Assembly: GCA_021208685.1 (NCBI GenBank)
Contig: JAJOJJ010000035.1
Location: 1-62,024 of the forward strand
Origin: Saccharospirillaceae bacterium
Lineage (GTDB): Bacteria; Pseudomonadota; Gammaproteobacteria; Pseudomonadales; Oceanobacteraceae
Direction: 5' to 3'
Length of the DNA: 62,024 nucleotides
Positions 19,901 to 28,816 of this stretch are shown one piece after another (position 1 is the first letter of the stretch; the number at the start of each line of letters is the position of its first letter). The notes below the pieces were generated by a model. It was not told the DNA's origin. It searched no databases and was given only the letters and a program-made list of their open reading frames with translations. Made by a program: the position numbers and the translations under genes.

Positions 19901-21104
19901 CCTGTTATTCATCGACCTTGACCGCTTTAAACCCATTAACGATTCAATGGGACATCCGGCCGGCGATCAGGTGTTAAAACAGGTCGCTCAGAGGCTGCAG
20001 AAATGCACCAAAAAACACGATCTGGTCTGCCGTATCGGTGGCGATGAATTTACCCTGGCCATCGGCGATCAGACCGATAATGAAACCGCCGCCAATACAG
20101 CAGTAAAGGTTGCTGAGCGTATTTTGCATGCTTTAAACCGGCCTTATATTCTGGGTCAGCGCGAAGTCTTTATCAGCGCCAGCATCGGTATATCCATCTA
20201 TCCGCACGATGGCAGCAGTGTGATTGAACTGCTGAAAAATTCCGATATGGCGATGTATCACGCCAAAGATCTGGGGCGAGATAACGTGCAGTTCTTTAAC
20301 GAAAAAATGAACCAGAAAGCGGTTGAATTACTGGAACTGGAAAACGATCTGCGTCATGCATTAGGGCGTAACGAGCTGGAGCTTTATTACCAGCCGCAAT
20401 ATCAGTCCAGCAGCGGCAAAGCCGTCGCGGCAGAGGCTTTATTACGCTGGAATCACCCCACCAAAGGGCTTATTTCTCCCGGGCTGTTCATACCCATTAT
20501 TGAAGATACCGGATTGATCGTCCCTATCGGCCAGTGGGTGCTGGAGCAGGCATGCCTGCACTTTGCCGAATGGCAGCATGAAGCTCTGGATCTGCAACGC
20601 ATCGCGGTTAACGTATCCGCCCGTCAGTTCAAACAGGACGATTTTCTGCAGATTGTAAAAGATGCCATTTTCAAAGCCGGAATACGCCCGGATCAGCTGG
20701 AACTGGAACTGACCGAAAGCATCCTGATCGACGATATCGAACACACGCTGGAAGCGCTGGATGGGTTGCGCAAACTGGGGGTACGTACAGCGATTGACGA
20801 TTTCGGAACCGGTTATTCATCACTGAACTACCTGAAACAATTCCCGGTAGATACCTTAAAAATTGACCGCAGTTTTATTCAGAATCTGCCAGACAACTCT
20901 GATGATGCACAGATCACCCGAACCATTATCGCCATGGCGCACAATCTGGGCATGGGCATTATTGCCGAAGGGGTAGAAACGCGCGAACAGCTGCACTTTT
21001 TAATTTCCGCGCGCTGCGAAGAAGTTCAGGGGTTCCTGTTCAGCAAACCCTTACCGCAGGCTCAGTTTATTCAGTTACTGCAAACTCATGAAACCCAGTG
21101 CTAA
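16932..21104 (+). CDS. Membrane PAS-GGDEF-EAL cyclic-di-GMP enzyme
   Basis: 1390 residues. Membrane helices at about 21-40 and 272-291 enclose a periplasmic Cache-like sensor. About five PAS/PAC modules follow (roughly 305-960), then GGDEF (exact GGDEF at 1036-1040) and EAL (EAL at 1168-1170, ELELTES, DDFGTGYSSL, KIDRSFI). Both catalytic motifs look intact, so it could make and break cyclic-di-GMP. The inhibitory site usually R-x-x-D before GGDEF reads KKHD, so product inhibition may be lost. Its last 17 bases overlap a DUF3570 gene, pointing to a shared transcript. Confidence 0.92.
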   Translation: MLFRLLQRSGKNDLRRSTLLNVPLFLLSFVFLTLVLAANVYRQWHNDQEAFNKEVALTLENYVQQSGLLAQAGLSANAMFSRGFAALLEQSANADRAARDQLWAEMQKSFFNLTGFVLFDANGRYLNHRGAQLHADEIRDIYANTLSIGGNQGMFSLRYGSKGGYYFFTHFQGPSGAAYLFVSRRSYSKLSSIIYNGNFPGFEMLLLDTRDNSIGIREHYYADSSHQPVLSKTEEQQILYRTNIPFTHWDVIALPEVKDIRAQLWNRIHPPLVVLATFFVLAGILWVFLRHQERRAAELEVIRRQTEQRADRVLMSIDDALISTDALGLINYVNPKGAALLIENGRRDFLGESLAEVWPDKQALWNRGLTADELELLQDNGRQLTVRIGEERRILEQGYNPLYEGRRISGIVWLLRDITDAVHATNALEESRSRYKALFEEAGVAHCLLDISHFDGQLDSVRLVNINDAAVRMTKARDRQQLLRDYSQLLAQGSRELRSALQRAVDLKLNTTEFELPLRIFSGESRDFWVNLSLRSGTPGQALMTILDVTERKKATEKTREREAFWSKVMAAMPDLVYVVEMTPDLNHKVIYHNRTMGEVLGYPADLQFNANDWLRYAEPEEEKNLAIALNKNRSLEMGTTREATARFRHYDGSLRILKFRDTPFALDKDGKVVRYIGTARDVTGDIEKQERIVESERRYRLLAENMSDVIWATDLDLNFNFVSSSVERILGYKPDELLREGIGAIFKRRDIRTLFRAMHHEIQQALLDPASAQSRNVMIRKDAIATSKNGKEVLLELQASPLWNDKGELQGMLGISRDVGEARTIERELQLAGEVFDNSNEAILITDRTLNIANINRAFVAITGFKHEEVIGRTPDFLISPERHGITFFEEIGEALVSAGYWQGEIFYQRASGEIRTGWAGVSAIRDKEHEVQSLIIIMSDITERKVIEERIHKLAYFDPLTGLPNRSQMHERLDVLLKTAQRNHHCVALLFIDLDRFKPINDSMGHPAGDQVLKQVAQRLQKCTKKHDLVCRIGGDEFTLAIGDQTDNETAANTAVKVAERILHALNRPYILGQREVFISASIGISIYPHDGSSVIELLKNSDMAMYHAKDLGRDNVQFFNEKMNQKAVELLELENDLRHALGRNELELYYQPQYQSSSGKAVAAEALLRWNHPTKGLISPGLFIPIIEDTGLIVPIGQWVLEQACLHFAEWQHEALDLQRIAVNVSARQFKQDDFLQIVKDAIFKAGIRPDQLELELTESILIDDIEHTLEALDGLRKLGVRTAIDDFGTGYSSLNYLKQFPVDTLKIDRSFIQNLPDNSDDAQITRTIIAMAHNLGMGIIAEGVETREQLHFLISARCEEVQGFLFSKPLPQAQFIQLLQTHETQC

Positions 21105-22245
21105 AAGCGCCCTGCTGGCTTTGGCCGCAACAGCACCGGTTCATGCTCTGGCACCGCCACAGGATGCCGAACTGCGCTATCGCATCAGCCAGTATCAGGA
21201 GCAGGATATCGCGGCTAACCGCGTTGCCACCGGTGCCACTCAACGCTATCAGATTTCCGTGCAGCAACTGCAGTGGCAGACACCGCTGGCCGGGCAATGG
21301 CTACTGAACCTTCAGGGCAGCTATGAAAGTCTGAGTGGCGCTTCGCCATTACAAACCTTTGAAAACAGCAGCGGTCAGAGCGAAGTCATTATGAGCGGCG
21401 CATCCATCGACGAAAGCCGTCAGGACGCGCAGATACAGCTGTCCCGTTATTTCAGCCGTGGCACTCTGGGTGGCGGTTGGTATTATTCCAGCGAAAACGA
21501 TTATCAGGCACAGGCCTGGAATCTGGCCGGCAGTCTCGAACTCTGGGCGGGGATGACCACCCTTAACGCAGGCTTAAGTCAGTCTGATGATCGTCTCAGC
21601 CCCGTGGATACCAGCCTGTCGGTTAACCGCCAGCTGGCAGATGACCAGAGCCGCCAGCGTCAGGAAGGTTATCTTGGCATCAGCCAGATTCTGAATAAAT
21701 ACGAAGTGCTGCAGCTGACGCTGGGTTACAGCCAAAGCAGCGGCTACCTGTCTGACCCGTACCGCACTATTGATCTGCGCCCGGACAACCGCGACAGCCA
21801 GACACTGAGCCTGATGTACCGTTTTTTTATGAAACCCTGGGATGGTGCAGCGCACTGCAATTATCGCCTTTACCGCGACAGCTGGGGCGTGGATTCGCAC
21901 ACGCTTGAGTTGCGCTGGTATCAGAATCCGGGACGCTTTATCGGACGCGACTGGCGCGCCAATATCGGCAGTCGCGTTTACCGCCAGCAGGCGGCCGATT
22001 TTTATTCTCTGGCCAGCAGCGCCAGCGGTGCCGCGCAGAGCAACGATGCAAGGCTTTCTGCCTACGGCGCCATTACGCTGGAGCTGGGCATCGATCTGCT
22101 CTGGTCCCATGCTCTGGAGTTCAGCCTCAGCGGACAACGCTATCGCAGCCGCGAATCCTGGGGGCCGCAGGGCAGCGAAGCCGCCGAAGCCCCGGCACTG
22201 GTGAATTATCAGCTGATCAGTGCCGGAGTGCTTTACCGCTACTGA
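21088..22245 (+). CDS. DUF3570-like predicted outer-membrane beta-barrel
   Basis: 385 residues with a short signal peptide (about 1-20, ending VHALA) and then alternating-strand sequence rich in Tyr, Ser, Gln and Arg, ending in aromatic Tyr-Arg-Tyr. Length and pattern fit DUF3570, a barrel family usually found with DUF4266 and ApbE-like genes. No such partners are here. The start overlaps the GGDEF/EAL gene by 17 bases. A cysteine in GAAHCNYRLY is unusual for a barrel. Its role is unknown; coupling to the signalling gene suggests surface function. Confidence 0.65.
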   Translation: MKPSAKSALLALAATAPVHALAPPQDAELRYRISQYQEQDIAANRVATGATQRYQISVQQLQWQTPLAGQWLLNLQGSYESLSGASPLQTFENSSGQSEVIMSGASIDESRQDAQIQLSRYFSRGTLGGGWYYSSENDYQAQAWNLAGSLELWAGMTTLNAGLSQSDDRLSPVDTSLSVNRQLADDQSRQRQEGYLGISQILNKYEVLQLTLGYSQSSGYLSDPYRTIDLRPDNRDSQTLSLMYRFFMKPWDGAAHCNYRLYRDSWGVDSHTLELRWYQNPGRFIGRDWRANIGSRVYRQQAADFYSLASSASGAAQSNDARLSAYGAITLELGIDLLWSHALEFSLSGQRYRSRESWGPQGSEAAEAPALVNYQLISAGVLYRY

Positions 22246-22253
22246 GCGGCGAT

Positions 22254-23561
22254 TCAGCCAAACAAACGGATGGTCTCAGCCTGTAATGGATAACGGGCAC
22301 TCAGTTCATGCCCGGCGATTCCGGCCAGTTCGCGCATCGCCTGCTGCATATGCTTGGGCTGCAACAGAATGCCGCTGCTGTCGGCGGCCAGTGTCTGCGC
22401 ATTGATCGCCAGCGCTTCGTGCGCGGCGCTGGTTAAGCCCACGCTGCGGTTTGCCCAGCTGGCATGTTTGCTCATAAAAATGGTGCTGCTGATCGGCCAG
22501 TGATCTTTACCGTTACCGTCGTTGTAACCCGGTGTACGGGCAAAGTCGGAACTGATCATCACCACCAGTTTGTCATCGATGCCTAATCGCTGTGCTTCCG
22601 CCCAGAGGTATTCCACACCGTTCTGCAAGCGCATTAAGGCCGCCGCATGGTCGGCATCGTGATTGGCATGGGTGTCAAAACCCCAGGCCACCAGATCCGT
22701 GCTCACGCACAATCCGGACTGATACGCGGCCAGCGCAATCTGTGCCTGACGTAACAGTGGATTCCAGTAACCGTCAGCATCGGTGTAATCAACCAGCGTC
22801 TGTGGCACGTACTGCGCCAGCAATTCCAGTAACTGCTGACCCTCTTTGGCCGCCGAAAACTGATTCAGCGCGGCCTGCATCCGCGCAGCCATGTGCGGTT
22901 GGGCCGCCTGCAAGCGGGCCAGACGCTCAGCACGGTGGCGGTTGATAATGTCGCGTGTACTCTGGCGGTGAAAATACTTCGCCGCATCCCAGTCACTGCC
23001 CGCATCAAGAAACTGATCCTGATACACCAGTTTATTGAGCGCACCGGGGTCCTGCATCAGGGTGTAATTAATTAATCCCGCCGTCTGGTTGTAACCGCCG
23101 TTGCTGAGATACGCCAGCGGTAGCCCGCTGCCGTAGACCGCCGCTGCCAGCGCGGCAAACGACGGATACCCTTCCGCCAGTCGACCACTCCAGTTGTAAC
23201 GCTGACCGGCCTGATGGGCGTTGGTCTGGGCATCAATGCCATTCACCACCAGCATGTGGGGATGCAGGTTAGAAAAGAAGCGCTGGTTATGGGCAAAGGG
23301 CGCGTAAGTAATGGAGCTGCCGCTGATGCTTTGTACCCCCTGGGTACTGGCCCAGTGATTGATCGCCGGGTTGGCTTTGGGATCACAGAAACTGGTGACA
23401 TCCCAGCCACCTCCGGCCTCAATGCTGACAAAAAACGGCCCCGTATATGGCGTAAAATGGCTGTCGGCCGCCCGTGCCCGCAATGACAGAGGCAGACCTG
23501 CCGCCAGACCGGAAGCCACCAGCAACTGCAGAAAGTGACGACGATTGATTCCTCTATTCAT
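22254..23561 (-). CDS. DUF1501 family Tat-exported protein
   Basis: 435 residues. The N-terminus carries a twin-arginine signal (NRRHFLQLLVASGLAAG) ending near ARAA at about 31. The body is the alkaline-phosphatase-like DUF1501 family: GGGWDVTSFCDP, SSDFARTPGYNDGNGKDHWP and AWGFDTHANHD are the metal-site-like motifs. ATG 23561 with AGGA eight bases before it is better than the upstream ATG 23579. It overlaps the stop of the haem lipoprotein gene by eight bases. Such pairs are common in marine bacteria and planctomycetes, but their substrate is not known. Confidence 0.88.
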   Translation of the reverse strand: MNRGINRRHFLQLLVASGLAAGLPLSLRARAADSHFTPYTGPFFVSIEAGGGWDVTSFCDPKANPAINHWASTQGVQSISGSSITYAPFAHNQRFFSNLHPHMLVVNGIDAQTNAHQAGQRYNWSGRLAEGYPSFAALAAAVYGSGLPLAYLSNGGYNQTAGLINYTLMQDPGALNKLVYQDQFLDAGSDWDAAKYFHRQSTRDIINRHRAERLARLQAAQPHMAARMQAALNQFSAAKEGQQLLELLAQYVPQTLVDYTDADGYWNPLLRQAQIALAAYQSGLCVSTDLVAWGFDTHANHDADHAAALMRLQNGVEYLWAEAQRLGIDDKLVVMISSDFARTPGYNDGNGKDHWPISSTIFMSKHASWANRSVGLTSAAHEALAINAQTLAADSSGILLQPKHMQQAMRELAGIAGHELSARYPLQAETIRLFG

Positions 23562-25977
23562 AAAGCATCCTGAAATCACTGAGCAGATACGTCAGCACAG
23601 CCATCCAGCTGCGCAGGGTGTGGTTCGGGTCCTGTTTCAGGGCCGCATCGTTATCCCAGTCGAGCAGGCAGAACTCATCCTGCTGATCATCAAGGGTGTC
23701 GTTATGGTACAGCCAGTCGCTGGGCGCATTGGCCACCCGCTCACTCCAGACTTCGTTAAACAGGGTGTAGGCGCTGTTCTGCTCCAGCGCCAGATCGGTC
23801 AGCGGATCGCCCCAGATAATGTCCATCAGCCGGTTCACCTGCGCCTGCACCTGAGCCGGGGCATTGGCCGGGGTATCGGTCATATCCACCAGCGTAAACA
23901 AGGTGCGCTGCGCCCTGGGCCGTTCAAACTCGGCCACCACCCGCTGACACACCATTTCCTGCGACATACGTCCGGCGACGGCGTACATCAGGGTGTTCAG
24001 ACTTTGCCCGCGCTGCACCACCGTATCGCTGTCGATGCCGCCATACAGGCCGTAATAATCCCGCGCCAGCAGATCGTAGTTGTCATCCCAGCTGTGATGC
24101 CAGAGACCACCACTCACCGCCTGAATCTTGCGGCTCAGCTGCTCTGCCGTAAGTAACTGACCTGCGCCCATATCGCCATAATCCGCACTTGCCGGAGCCT
24201 GTAACGCGCGGAATACCGGGCTCATCGCCATATCGGCGAGCAGATCCTTGAGCGGATAACCGCCGCGGCGGAAGGCTGCCGCCAGCTCACCCACCATACG
24301 CTGCTGTTCGCTGTAACGGGCCAGCTTATCCGCGTAATCCCTGTCACTGGGCTCGGTGGGTTGTGGCAACAGCTCACTCCCAAACACCGCCGGCCACCAG
24401 AACGCGACGGTACCACTGGCAAAGCGCTCGTCGGCAACCATCTGCTGAGCCAGCCATTGCAGGCTGTTATCGTTATTGGCAGCCGGCAGTACCTGCCCGG
24501 CAAAACCGGGTGCGCGCATATCGCGGTACCAGAGATCACCATCCTGATAAAGGTCACCGGCTTTGTAGGTATCCGGCAGTGAGTCATCGCCATCCCAGGC
24601 ATCACGGTAATGACCATTATCGCCATAGTTCTGAAAGGCACCGGCCACCGGGTCCATGATTTCGTGGCAAACCGCACAGGATGGGTTATTCAGCGTCGGA
24701 TTATTGGTGTCCGTCAGATCCTCCGTAGCCATGGAGCGCAAGGCCAGCCCTTCAATATCCACATTGAGGAAAAAATAATACGCCCAGCGGGCCCGGGCAC
24801 GGTTGCGGTTGGTATCCGTTGAGGGATAGCGCGCCAGAAACATCTGAGAACTGAGCAGACCAGCCTGAGGCAATGGCCCGCCGCCATAACCATCGGTAAT
24901 GCGTGCCGGACGCCAGTCGTCCGGATCATTGTTATCCGGGAAGCTGATGCCGGTGTGATACACGTCGTTGGAAAACGGATTGACCATCAGATAATCCGCC
25001 GTCAGCACTTCCGTGTAGGGTCGGTCGTGGGTAACGACATAGTTAATCAGCTGCAGCGGCGCCGTCGCTACGGCGTGATTGGTATTCGACCAGGCGAAAC
25101 CAAAAGCCTCATTCGCGGCCTGACGCTGTTCATCCGTAGAAGCCGAGTTCACCGCCTGCTGCAACGGTGCCAGCCGCGATTCGATATAGGTAAAACGCCC
25201 GCCTTCATAAAGCAGCTCAAGCCCCGGCGTGCGGCTGTTGGCGAATTTATTGGTGAGCAAGCGGTCATTCGCGCTTTCCAGCAGAAAATCGCTGAAATGC
25301 TCTCCCGTCATCAGATAACGGATGGCATTACGCAGGCTGACGTCCGTACCATCCGCAACCGAAGCGAGCTCGGCAGGCGTTGGCAGGCGTCCGGCAAATA
25401 GCAGTGCGGCTTTACGCAATGTGGCATGACTGTCCAGCAATACCGCCTCGTCCCAGAATGCCGACAGACTGACACTGCCGTCGCCGCCATCCGCCTCGGT
25501 GCAGCTGGCAACCGGCCCGGCAAGCCAGCGCTGTAAACTCTGGTGAGCCACGGAGCCCACATCGAATACCCGCCCGCCACCATGAACAACCTGCCCCAGC
25601 GGCTTGGCTTCGATATTCGCAAGACCGGCCTCAGAGGCAATGTAAGTATTCACTGCGCTTAAGTTATCCGCCAGATAAGAACTGACCGAAGCGGGTTGCA
25701 GCACCAGCCCGGATTCTCTGGCAATGCCACCACTCTGATGACACTGCATACAGGAAGGAGCCAGCAGCGGTGCCCATAATTCCGCATTGAAACGCTCCAG
25801 TTCAGCCGCACAGGCCGAAGCCCCATGACCATCTGTCGGGGTTTTGTCCGGCGTATTGTTCTGCGGATGACTGTCGCTGATCAGCTCCCCCTGATATTGG
25901 GTTTCGCCGCAGGCTGACAACAGCACCATGAACAGCGCAGCCAGCCCCCACCTCCTGAACACGACCGGTAACACCAT
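23554..25977 (-). CDS. Haem-binding lipoprotein of the DUF1592/DUF1588 type
   Basis: 807 residues. The signal has lipobox LLSAC with lipidated Cys at 23. Two c-type haem sites are visible, CMQCH at 76-80 and CAVCH near residue 433; the second is followed by EIMDPVAGAFQNYGDNG, which resembles DUF1588 proteins. The middle contains the long alpha-helical DUF1592-like region. The partner DUF1501 gene starts eight bases inside its 3' end. The two are probably a secreted oxidation or electron-transfer module; the reaction is not known. Its start faces the ubiquitin-domain gene across a 240-base divergent intergenic region. Confidence 0.75.
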   Translation of the reverse strand: MVLPVVFRRWGLAALFMVLLSACGETQYQGELISDSHPQNNTPDKTPTDGHGASACAAELERFNAELWAPLLAPSCMQCHQSGGIARESGLVLQPASVSSYLADNLSAVNTYIASEAGLANIEAKPLGQVVHGGGRVFDVGSVAHQSLQRWLAGPVASCTEADGGDGSVSLSAFWDEAVLLDSHATLRKAALLFAGRLPTPAELASVADGTDVSLRNAIRYLMTGEHFSDFLLESANDRLLTNKFANSRTPGLELLYEGGRFTYIESRLAPLQQAVNSASTDEQRQAANEAFGFAWSNTNHAVATAPLQLINYVVTHDRPYTEVLTADYLMVNPFSNDVYHTGISFPDNNDPDDWRPARITDGYGGGPLPQAGLLSSQMFLARYPSTDTNRNRARARWAYYFFLNVDIEGLALRSMATEDLTDTNNPTLNNPSCAVCHEIMDPVAGAFQNYGDNGHYRDAWDGDDSLPDTYKAGDLYQDGDLWYRDMRAPGFAGQVLPAANNDNSLQWLAQQMVADERFASGTVAFWWPAVFGSELLPQPTEPSDRDYADKLARYSEQQRMVGELAAAFRRGGYPLKDLLADMAMSPVFRALQAPASADYGDMGAGQLLTAEQLSRKIQAVSGGLWHHSWDDNYDLLARDYYGLYGGIDSDTVVQRGQSLNTLMYAVAGRMSQEMVCQRVVAEFERPRAQRTLFTLVDMTDTPANAPAQVQAQVNRLMDIIWGDPLTDLALEQNSAYTLFNEVWSERVANAPSDWLYHNDTLDDQQDEFCLLDWDNDAALKQDPNHTLRSWMAVLTYLLSDFRMLYE

Positions 25978-26217: not shown

Positions 26218-28758
26218 ATGGCAAAACAATGCCTTACCCCATTCAGCGCAAAATTCGCGCTGCTGTGTATGATAATGCTGTTCAGTGTTCCCACGATGGC
26301 CATGCAGATATTCGTGAAACTGCCGGGCGGTAAAACCATCACGCTGGACGTAGAAGCCAGCGACTCTATTGAAAGTGTCAAAGCCAAAATTGAGGACAAA
26401 GAAGGCTTCCTGCCCGATCAGCAAATCCTGACGTTTGCAGGAAATACAATAGAAGACGGTCGCACACTGTCGGATTACAACATCCAGAAAGAAAGTACGC
26501 TGCTGCTGACGTTGCGCCCGTTTGTTCAGTTCACGCTTAACGATATTGTCACGATCAATGCCACCGGGCTTTTAACCCCTCTGCCGCAGAATCTTGCCAG
26601 CGCCGTCGACATTAACGGGCTGGAACTGGAACCCTGGCATAATCTGCCGTCTGAATGGTTAGCTCCGGGCCAGCACATCATCACCTGGACAGCTGAAGAT
26701 GGTCAGGGTAATCAGGCACAGCAACAGCAAACGCTGAACATCAATCCCATTGCTGACTGGGCAGCAGACCAGCAGGTAAGCGAGGGAAGCCGTGTCAGTG
26801 TGATGCTGAATTTAAACGGCGATGCTCCGGCCTACCCGGTTGAAGCAACCTTCCGCATTTCCGGAACCGCCACGTTTGGCGATGATCACAACGCTCAGGA
26901 CGGCACACTGATCATCAACAGTGGCCGCTACGGTGAACTGATCATTGATATTACTGAAGACAGCATCGCAGAAAGTCCGGAAACGCTGTTGATTACCCTG
27001 GAAAGTATCAGCCATGCCACTCCCGGAACCCAGACCACTCACCGCATAGATATCAGCGAACACAGGGTTTCCCCCCAACTCAGGCTCAGCGCCGCTGCAG
27101 ACACCACACCGGCGCAGCAACAGCAGATATTTACCACGAACACCGGAGCCATCACCGTCAGTGCGCTGCTGAGCGGCCTGAACAGTATTGAGACACATCA
27201 GTATGAGTGGCAAACCGGCGGACTGACAGGCAATGCGGAAGGCCCGCACTTCCGCTTTAACCCGCTGAACCAATCCCCCGGCGTCTACCCGATCCGCCTG
27301 CGGGTACCCGACAAGACCTCGCCAACGGCATACCGCAGTGCCACCCTGCTGCTTTACCTGACCCTGCACATGCCAGAACTGAGTGCAGCCCTGGACAGCG
27401 ACGCCGATGGTATTGATGACGCCACTGAAGGCTATCAGGACAGCGATAACGATGGCGTCCCGGATTACGCTGATACCATATCCGCCAGCAACGTGCTGGC
27501 CATCTACCCACGGGGTAATGCACCGGTTACAGGAGCCTGGCAGGTGGAAACCGAGCCGGGGCTGCACATCGCCCTGAATGTTTATGGCATCAGCAGCGGC
27601 GACTACAGCCCGTTGCTGACTGACGACAGCCTGTTACTGAGCGATCAGCACTATGAATACACCGCCGGATTATTCGATTTTGTTGTGTCCAACATGCCGG
27701 TAGCCGGAGCCAGTGTGAATATTGTTCTGCCGCAGGATGCGCCTGTCCCGCAGCAGGCGGCCTACCGTAAAACCATCGATCAGCAGTGGCATGATTTTGT
27801 CGAAGATACCCGCAACCGCATCCGCTCTGCCCCCGGTCAGCGTGGCTATTGCCCGCCCCCCGGAGACAGTCGTTATAACGACGGGCTGACCGCCGGTCAT
27901 TATTGTGTGCAGCTGACGATTGAAGACGGCGGCCCGAATGATGCAGACGGTGAAATCAACGGCCGGATTGTTGATCCTGGTGGTATCGCCAGCATCATCA
28001 CCAGCGATGCCGACAACCGCACCAGCGTCCACACCCGCGCGGCGGGATCGCTGGCACTGCCGTTTTTTGCTCTGCTCGCACTCCTGAGCCTGATCCGTCG
28101 CCGCAACACAACATCCGCCAGTAAGGCGGCATGGTGGTTGGTTGCGGTTTCCAGCCTGGCACAAGCAACGGAAACACCGCCCGTTGCCGCAGCGAATATG
28201 TACCTGAACCTGAGTGCTGGTATTGCCCACTCCCCTGTACGCAGTCAGGACATCCGGCAGCAACTCGCTGCAGACAATACCGATGTACGGCTGGAAAGCT
28301 CTGATGCAACGCAAACCGCAGGCAGCATAGGTCTGGGCTACCGAATGAATAATCGCCTGTCGGCTGAACTGTCCTACGCCGATCTGGGACAGGTCGATCT
28401 GGAACTGAGCAGCAGTCAGGGTATACAGCGGTTAACCGATATCCACCCTGAAGGTGGTCATGGCATCAGCGCGTCAGGCGTTCTGGATTACCCGCTGACA
28501 GGGCTTCTGTATCTGCGCGCCAGAATGGGTCTGTTCCACTGGCAGGCCCGTTACCGCAGCATTGCAGCACCCGGCGACCGCACTGAAACCGTTTCAGATT
28601 CGTCAACTGACCTCTACTGGGGAATCGGTACAAGGTATCAGCTGTACCCGGACTTCGGCTTAACCACCGAAGTGCAGCGTTTTGAATTCGATAATCAGCC
28701 ACGCCACTATGCCGGCATCGGAATTGAGTGGCACTTTATGGCACCGTCTGGCCACTGA
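26218..28758 (+). CDS. Secreted ubiquitin-domain / anchor-U / outer-membrane barrel fusion protein
   Basis: 846 residues. Signal peptide 1-28, cut predicted before Met29. Ubiquitin-like domain 29-100, identical to human ubiquitin at 55 of 72 aligned positions without gaps. Then HYR-like (about 101-175), Calx-beta-like (about 178-285) and PKD-like (about 286-390) beta-sandwich regions. An acidic Asp-rich calcium-repeat stretch at 393-420. A choice-of-anchor-U-like domain (about 421-605, with [19 protein letters not shown] and NGRIVDPGG). A hydrophobic helix ended by RRR (612-629), a second signal-like stretch ending AQA (about 640-655), and a beta-barrel (about 662-846) with terminal IEWHF. 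ATG 26218 is preferred to TTG 26206. The function is unknown. Confidence 0.9.
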
Positions 28759-28777
28759 CGATCCCTCCAGGCGTCTC

Positions 28778-28816
28778 CGCATGGTCAGCTTTCCTGACCA
28801 TGCGGTCACGTTTTTT
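28778..28816 (+). terminator. Terminator-like stem after the ubiquitin-domain gene
   Basis: A perfect 11-base stem (28778-28788 with 28794-28804), loop of five; six T begin six bases later, so it is somewhat loose. Confidence 0.6.

Follow-up and report, generated by a model that had tools for sequence, protein, structure and literature searches.

The ubiquitin-headed gene and its locus

The DNA analyzed here is a 62,024-nucleotide stretch (hereafter the window) of contig JAJOJJ010000035.1, from the assembly GCA_021208685.1 of a Saccharospirillaceae bacterium. Between the genes for a DUF1588 protein and GlyA, it holds an open reading frame on the plus strand (26218-28758, ATG at 26218) encoding an 846-amino-acid (aa) protein that begins with a predicted signal peptide followed by a ubiquitin domain. 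The putative signal peptide (26218..26301, +; residues 1-28, MAKQ...TMA), with a predicted cut before Met29, was judged by hydrophobicity and the residues preceding the cut only (TMA/M): its best 11-residue mean hydropathy is 2.75, the hydrophobic stretch lies directly before ubiquitin, and an alanine occupies position -1. Residues 29-100 (26302..26517, +), the predicted mature N terminus, match ubiquitin without gaps and are identical to the human protein at 55 of 72 positions. phmmer scored them at 87-90 bits per ubiquitin repeat, and Pfam family PF00240 matched at 74.1 bits (cut-off, 25.4; E value, 7.8e-21). The 17 differences from human ubiquitin are T7L, L8P, T9G, E16D, P19A, T22S, N25S, Q31E, I36F, P37L, R42I, I44T, K48N, Q49T, L50I, H68L, and V70T, while the 17 residues at ubiquitin positions 51-67 are identical. 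The head ends in LLLTLRPF, compared with LHLVLRLRGG in ubiquitin, and has neither the C-terminal RGG nor its diglycine (GG). In an AlphaFold2 model built on a 31-row alignment and compared by Foldseek, the predicted fold of these residues is that of ubiquitin (template modeling [TM] score, 0.98; root mean square deviation, 0.5 Å over 73 columns to 6k2u), with a predicted local distance difference test score (pLDDT) of 85-92 per ten residues across the head. An earlier note, made from the sequence before any search, had described a gap-free ubiquitin with 55 identical residues at this place. phmmer, PF00240, and the alignment bear this out, the 17 positions that it listed are exact, and the run that it called unchanged is so; the signal peptide and export that it foresaw are supported as predictions, and the structure prediction that it proposed as a check returned the ubiquitin fold.

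The remainder of the protein, all on the plus strand, reads as a putative stalk and membrane anchor. A Big_13 (bacterial Ig-like) remnant (26632..26739; residues 139-174; PF19077, 20.7-23.9 bits), a Calx-beta-like domain (26857..27018; residues 214-267; PF03160, 19.4-20.2 bits), and a PKD-like domain modeled as beta strands (27136..27321; residues 307-368; PF18911, 25.1 bits) each score under a cut-off of 27. Thrombospondin type 3-like acidic repeats follow (27394..27477; residues 393-420), where PF02412 matches very weakly (E value, 1.1) and the acidic repeat letters (18 residues) were read by eye. The choice-of-anchor U domain (27646..27990; residues 477-591) is recognized by NF041766 at 57 bits (cut-off, 32). 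Next come a 19-residue internal helix with an arginine cluster that resembles a sorting tail (28048..28104; residues 611-629), a second signal-peptide-like stretch read from the sequence (28108..28167; residues 631-650), and an OmpA-like outer-membrane beta-barrel (28168..28737; residues 651-840) matching PF13505 at 37.2 bits (cut-off, 28.7) and PF01389 at 36.6 bits (cut-off, 21). The helix stays under the cut-offs for JDVT-CTERM (12.5 of 27) and GlyGly-CTERM (8.1 of 15.5), as well as CGP-CTERM and MYXO-CTERM. The modeled C terminus resembles OmpA 9fzd (Foldseek TM score by target, 0.76), and the predicted TM score of the whole protein is just 0.36. A Pfam scan of the window protein found no match to the autotransporter beta-domain PF03797. 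Behind the gene lies an intrinsic-terminator-like hairpin (28777..28805, +; 12 pairs, 8 of them G-C, with a T tail); 10 terminator-like sites were found in the region, compared with 2.5 in shuffles.

The window gene is the sole PF00240 match in the 4.0 Mb of its own genome, and such matches occur in 2 of the 9 genus genomes and 2 of the 44 family genomes. The single-contig genome G038, from a second species of the genus, carries the gene in synteny, between glyA and a DUF1588/DUF1501 pair. In G036 and G040 (GlyA, 98-99% identical), this pair directly adjoins glyA without a ubiquitin-headed gene, and five other genus genomes have neither the gene nor the pair in the 10 kb beside glyA. The pair is found at the glyA-side site in 4 of 9 genus members, and the whole gene is present or absent at one fixed site across the genus. 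Beside the locus, the window also carries DUF3570, DUF1501, and DUF1588 (PSCyt3) genes at 21088-25977, and none of the seven neighboring genes scanned against Pfam is of the ubiquitin-activating or -conjugating enzyme (E1/E2) type. Between the window and G038, the ubiquitin-headed protein is 65% identical, compared with 98.6% for GlyA, 93% for DUF1501, and 88-89% for DUF1588; the window protein is fast-evolving. The head, compared with its G038 orthologue over 72 codons, has 0.14 nonsynonymous and 0.56 synonymous differences per site (pN and pS) and a ratio of nonsynonymous to synonymous substitution rates (dN/dS) of 0.15, indicating that its sequence is held by purifying selection. Trees of glyA and DUF1588 place the window species outside G038 plus G036 (and, on weaker branches, outside G040), and the history of the gene fits either a single early gain followed by two losses or transfer from one species to another. 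The in-frame fusion and the G038 synteny refute eukaryotic contamination for the window, which the earlier note had thought unlikely; the ubiquitin match is neither a chance match nor a contaminant.

Ubiquitin heads in other bacteria

A scan of a species-genome collection for exact peptide patterns of the window head yielded 32 loci (loci are designated L here and below). PF00240 exceeded its cut-off in 2 of 369 genomes from the window's class (own included; three more lay under the cut-off), 9 of 288 from the phylum of a verrucomicrobial center genome, 6 of 345 from that of a Pontibacter center, 1 of 216 from that of a Rhodopirellula center, 3 of 210 from the class of a Pseudovibrio center, and 4 of 219 from the phylum of a Saccharibacillus center, where two of the four matches (28.0 and 25.8 bits) were barely above the cut-off of 25.4. 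These five centers were chosen because they had a match and each is contained in its sample; with own and center genomes left out, the six samples give, in the same order, 1/368, 8/287, 5/344, 0/215, 2/209, and 3/218. No PF00240 match was found in fourteen control genomes or among 50,697 phage records, 3 of 72,556 plasmid records matched, and none was confirmed among viral contigs, so that no virus carrier was found. Collapsing 97 tblastn pieces gave 61 distinct ubiquitin sequences, not counting the weak matches L036, L037, and L038 (under the cut-off) and L083 and L084 (28.0 and 25.8 bits). Leaving out L003, which is eukaryotic in build, gives the 60 domains on which the counts below are based. 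Their titled loci span ten phyla (NCBI names), four of which (Thermodesulfobacteriota, Actinomycetota, Lindowiibacteriota, and Myxococcota) are represented by metagenome-assembled genomes (MAGs) only, with misbinning possible. Some members lie on complete plasmid records. On one of them, the Ruminococcus albus plasmid pRUMAL01 (L072, typed mobilizable), the gene for a predicted exported ubiquitin-headed protein is flanked by hypothetical genes, with a dockerin protein encoded nearby. At L014, L022, L026, and L063, duplicate ubiquitin-headed genes with diverged heads neighbor each other within one locus.

The layout of the window protein recurs throughout this set. Fifty-six of the 60 domains have a signal-peptide-like stretch directly before ubiquitin, defined as an 11-residue window with a mean hydropathy of at least 1.8 within the 35 preceding residues; in the other four (two copies at L022, plus L030 and L039), ubiquitin starts no later than codon 16 of the open frame. 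No internal ubiquitin domain was seen among the 60. Of the 59 domains counted for position -1 (L030 was not), 58 have A, S, G, or C there, and the exception, L073, reflects a one-residue alignment offset. Met1 is retained in 56 of 60 domains, and GG within residues 74-78 occurs in none. This pattern suggests that predicted export of a non-conjugating ubiquitin is a rare yet widespread habit in bacteria.

The bodies behind the heads are diverse. Downstream regions longer than 20 aa (58 of 60, the tails at L077 being too short to count) fall into 30 blastp components at an E value of 1e-5, of which 22 are single, indicating that the head has been joined to many different bodies. A family scan took 52 of the 60, leaving out near-duplicates in one locus, L085, L068, and both L077 domains, and found the autotransporter barrel PF03797 in 10 of them. 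Among members scanned singly, this barrel was present in 7 of 10 (L004, L006, L013, L025, L026, L075, and L081) and not found in L005, L009, or L080. Seven of 10 others bear sorting tails: type IX secretion system (T9SS) type A in L010 and L033, T9SS type B in L019, IPTL-CTERM in L015 and L035, VPDSG-CTERM in L067, and PEP-CTERM in L069; none was found in L031, L014, or L064. Several bodies are minimal. L010 and L033 have 86 and 82 aa behind ubiquitin, mostly T9SS tail, L015 has 39 aa with an IPTL-CTERM tail, and in the L004 model (mean pLDDT, 78) a 39-residue helix and then an autotransporter barrel of ~12 strands follow ubiquitin, a layout that in autotransporters places the N terminus outside the cell. 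In these four proteins, ubiquitin looks like nearly the sole cargo.

The bacterial heads are identical to human ubiquitin at 33-68 of 72 positions, with the closest at 66-68. Mean identity is 77% to human ubiquitin and 78% to the L003 repeat, compared with 66% among the bacterial heads themselves. None of the 60 is nearer to its median bacterial counterpart than to the nearer of human and L003 ubiquitin, and in 33 of them the nearest sequence, alone or in a tie, is eukaryotic; the window head itself matches L003 at 58 of 72 positions, versus 54 of 72 for its G038 orthologue. Eukaryotic ubiquitin hardly changes, and a star-like pattern with it at the center supports a eukaryotic origin of the bacterial heads. 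Ancient bacterial beta-grasp relatives are far less similar to human ubiquitin than this, and we regard descent from such a protein, or an assembly artifact, as extremely improbable. Contamination does occur: L003:2901-3818, a tetra-ubiquitin gene built like those of eukaryotes, lies on a 4-kb contig of 2x coverage binned as Nitrospinota and is probably a contaminant of that MAG, and 18 of the 32 pattern-scan loci stand in records titled MAG. Against it speak the 14 of 32 loci not so titled, from six phyla, the complete plasmid records, and the window gene's in-frame fusion to bacterial domains and synteny in G038.

The earlier note had taken transfer from a eukaryote as the simplest explanation. 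Its eukaryotic origin holds; direct transfer into this organism is not the simplest account, because ubiquitin-headed proteins are scattered over about ten phyla and a Vibrio and two Pseudoalteromonas strains bear ubiquitin ahead of regions homologous to the window's, and the window head may have come from another bacterium. The note had also looked to a tree, in which nesting within a eukaryotic clade would support transfer. In our tree of 64 rows by 72 columns, the domain is not nested: the four eukaryotic rows are scattered among bacterial rows, three of them on zero-length branches, and 8 of 61 inner branches are well supported, 36 are open, and the bootstrap had not settled. Seventy-two residues fix neither the donor nor the choice between one transfer followed by spread and many transfers. 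The combination D16/A19/S22 occurs in 21 of 60 domains and in the eukaryotic contig L003; sites 16, 19, and 22 vary among eukaryotes, the other 39 members differ, and we do not claim a single donor lineage from it.

Anchor, recognition patch, and candidate functions

With moderate confidence, we propose that ubiquitin of eukaryotic origin now serves as a display head that is exported, does not conjugate, and binds through a non-canonical surface. A piece of a eukaryotic ubiquitin gene that stops where the folded domain ends, and so lacks the conjugating tail, would have been fused behind a Sec signal peptide, and its product would form the N-terminal head of a mature protein that is exported and anchored in the envelope. 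The Ig/Calx-beta/PKD-like domains, acidic repeats, and choice-of-anchor U domain would form the stalk that bears this head, and the sorting-tail-like helix and OmpA-like barrel would hold the protein at the outer membrane. Being non-conjugable, the head could serve as a stable folded ligand, binding an extracellular partner through surfaces other than the Ile44 patch and acting as an adhesin-type or contact head. The sequence, the predicted fold, the missing GG, the lost patch, purifying selection, the presence or absence of the whole gene at one site, and the recurrence of the head on many unrelated exported proteins are observed directly; signal cleavage, exposure of the head outside the cell, and the existence and identity of a partner are inferred.

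At an E value of 0.001, 20 of 44 family genomes (the window's own among them) encode relatives of the window body (residues 101-846), many of which match weakly. The long relatives in genus g6, with frames of 2467-3348 aa (L127 is 2085 aa and cut at its 5′ end), share both anchor and barrel; no ubiquitin was found in them with filters off, agreeing with the whole-genome result. N-terminal ubiquitin and a window-homologous anchor occur together in Vibrio sp. ES.051 (L089, 2525 aa; the same genome as L032) and on two Pseudoalteromonas shioyasakiensis megaplasmids (L073 and L130). Other heads stand on homologous proteins in Pseudoalteromonas sp. CF6-2, P. piscicida, and P. xiamenensis (two; four proteins in all). 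Since homologous anchors exist with or without ubiquitin, the anchor acts as a chassis with exchangeable heads.

L073 and L130 are 87% identical over their C-terminal 1942 residues and 46% over the N-terminal 690, ubiquitin head included, as if the heads had been exchanged or had diversified. Such divergence of the head region within one species would suit a contact-dependent weapon that kills or inhibits neighboring bacteria, by analogy with BfUbb, a secreted ubiquitin without GG described as inhibiting other Bacteroides fragilis strains (PMC5705921). At the window, the gene is flanked by the DUF1588 gene and glyA and the unit ends at the hairpin, although no dedicated immunity-gene search was made. 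Polymorphic toxins, moreover, usually bear their toxic part at the C terminus. We consider such an antagonistic role improbable.

The P. shioyasakiensis barrel is encoded by a gene of its own lying upstream (L073:8110-8784 and L130:3219-3893); it opens with a signal-peptide-like stretch and is distantly similar to the window barrel (E values, 4e-8 and 5e-9). Relatives lacking ubiquitin have, at the same place, stretches like the second signal-peptide-like stretch of the window protein, and at their helix site GlyGly-CTERM just passes in L125 (16.1 of 15.5), just misses in L126 (13.3), and has no match in L123, L127, or L129. In the window (28048-28167) and in L123, L125, L126, L127, and L129, surface protein and barrel are joined, with the sorting-tail-like helix and signal-like stretch between them. 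Judged from this arrangement, the window protein looks like a fusion of a surface protein and a barrel with the sorting-tail-like helix left inside, and cutting in mid-protein near that helix is possible.

All four residues of the Ile44 recognition patch are changed in the window head (L8P, I44T, H68L, and V70T), as are R42 and K48; the earlier note had listed these positions and had not pointed out the loss of the patch. The G038 head retains I44 and H68; either the window lineage lost these after its split from G038 or the G038 copy has another history. Over the 60 domains, mean identity to human ubiquitin is 0.90 at 16 core positions and 0.76 at other non-core positions, compared with 0.59 for the four-residue patch (L8, I44, H68, and V70; permutation P = 0.05) and 0.54 for a seven-residue patch that adds R42, K48, and Q49 (P = 0.002); the core and patch lists were not derived from coordinates, and the rows are not independent. 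For the 23 members found by the hidden Markov model (HMM) only and the 34 found by peptide pattern, the P values are 0.17 and 0.04 with four residues and 0.007 and 0.003 with seven. Erosion of the four-residue patch is thus marginal, and that of the seven-residue patch holds in all three groupings. All four patch residues are kept in 21 of 60 domains and none in 11, the window's included. In an exploratory comparison, with a cut-off chosen by us without a control and relatives retained, short-bodied proteins (n = 37) keep 2.76 of the 4 patch residues, versus 1.70 for long-bodied ones (n = 23; P = 0.012), with no such difference over the remainder of the domain (P = 0.74).

These data bear on two further explanations. 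One is that ubiquitin was kept only as a stable, fast-folding N-terminal cap that shields exported proteins and has no binding role. A conserved core beside a patch less conserved than other non-core positions is what such a cap would produce, and the window head has lost the entire patch. Against it stand L010, L015, L033, and L004, where ubiquitin is nearly the whole cargo, and the higher patch retention in short-bodied proteins, with the rest of the domain equal; we hold this explanation to be unlikely. The other is mimicry, in which the head would engage ubiquitin receptors or the E1 of a protist host or grazer. The 21 domains with an intact patch, the members with 66-68 of 72 residues identical to human ubiquitin, and the covalent complex reported between BfUbb and human E1 (PMC3352274) lend it some weight. 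In the window protein, L8, I44, H68, V70, R42, and K48 are all changed, there is no GG and no C-terminal cysteine, and the protein is predicted to be anchored outside the cytoplasm. The patch pattern speaks against ubiquitin-receptor mimicry for this protein and leaves room for it in patch-bearing relatives; for the window protein we find mimicry quite improbable.

Four observations weigh against the display head that we favor. Losing the patch would be compatible with a simple stability cap as well. In an eight-stranded OmpA barrel, both termini face the periplasm, so the head could be periplasmic unless the internal sorting tail is processed. That tail does not reach the GlyGly-CTERM (rhombosortase, TIGR03501) cut-off in the window protein and is internal, not terminal. 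Finally, single scans of 20 members found no anchor family in 6 of them (L005, L009, L080, L014, L064, and L031).

A broader and more tentative proposal is that about ten phyla have repeatedly taken eukaryotic ubiquitin for extracellular display, with young copies keeping the patch and addressing protists or animals and older ones, such as the window's, having swapped their binding surface. Ubiquitin is held to be a eukaryotic hallmark. If display is correct, these proteins would form a class of surface-displayed ubiquitins that has had no name so far and uses many surface-anchoring routes, and they would offer a testable route by which bacteria, bearing a eukaryotic protein on the cell surface, may encounter protists, hosts, or rivals. 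The set would also be a natural experiment on how the parts of ubiquitin needed for the fold differ from those needed for recognition.

Comparison with known systems

Our search of the open-access literature, with subscription journals and preprints outside its scope, found no description of ubiquitin-headed surface proteins. The window protein shares sequence (55 of 72 residues) and predicted fold (TM score, 0.98) with eukaryotic ubiquitin (PF00240) and differs from it in its predicted export, in lacking GG and the patch, and in having no polyubiquitin or ribosomal fusion. The prokaryotic ubiquitin-like proteins of Bil operons, Pup, and archaeal SAMP/CsUb (PMC11354881) are described as conjugation or degradation systems, whereas the window protein has no conjugable tail. 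Among surface proteins, the choice-of-anchor U proteins of Pseudoalteromonas and Vibrio have anchors homologous to the window's (31-50% identical); three of those examined bear ubiquitin heads and four do not, and the P. shioyasakiensis protein has an associated OmpA-like barrel, as the window protein does. Other members of the set share the barrel type of autotransporters (PF03797), while that of the window protein is OmpA-like instead.

The closest precedent is BfUbb, which Patrick et al. presented in 2011 as unique, ubiquitin having until then been assigned to eukaryotes only (PMC3352274). The same report describes a covalent complex with human E1 under nonreducing conditions, which its authors read as a possible suicide substrate. 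Like BfUbb, compared here by its description, the window protein has a signal peptide (by hydrophobicity) directly before ubiquitin and no GG. BfUbb is described as short and stand-alone, with a C-terminal cysteine and a reported antibacterial action (PMC3352274 and PMC5705921); the window protein has 846 aa, a putative stalk, and a predicted outer-membrane barrel, no such cysteine, and no patch, which upholds the earlier note's contrast between a large surface-type protein and stand-alone BfUbb. One genome of the Bacteroidota sample has, at L077, a pair of adjacent genes for stand-alone ubiquitins with signal peptides (106- and 102-aa frames); one product ends in ..TPPCN, reminiscent of BfUbb. 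The window protein thus resembles BfUbb in origin and predicted export and differs from it in build, and the wider class to which it would belong has perhaps gone unrecognized.

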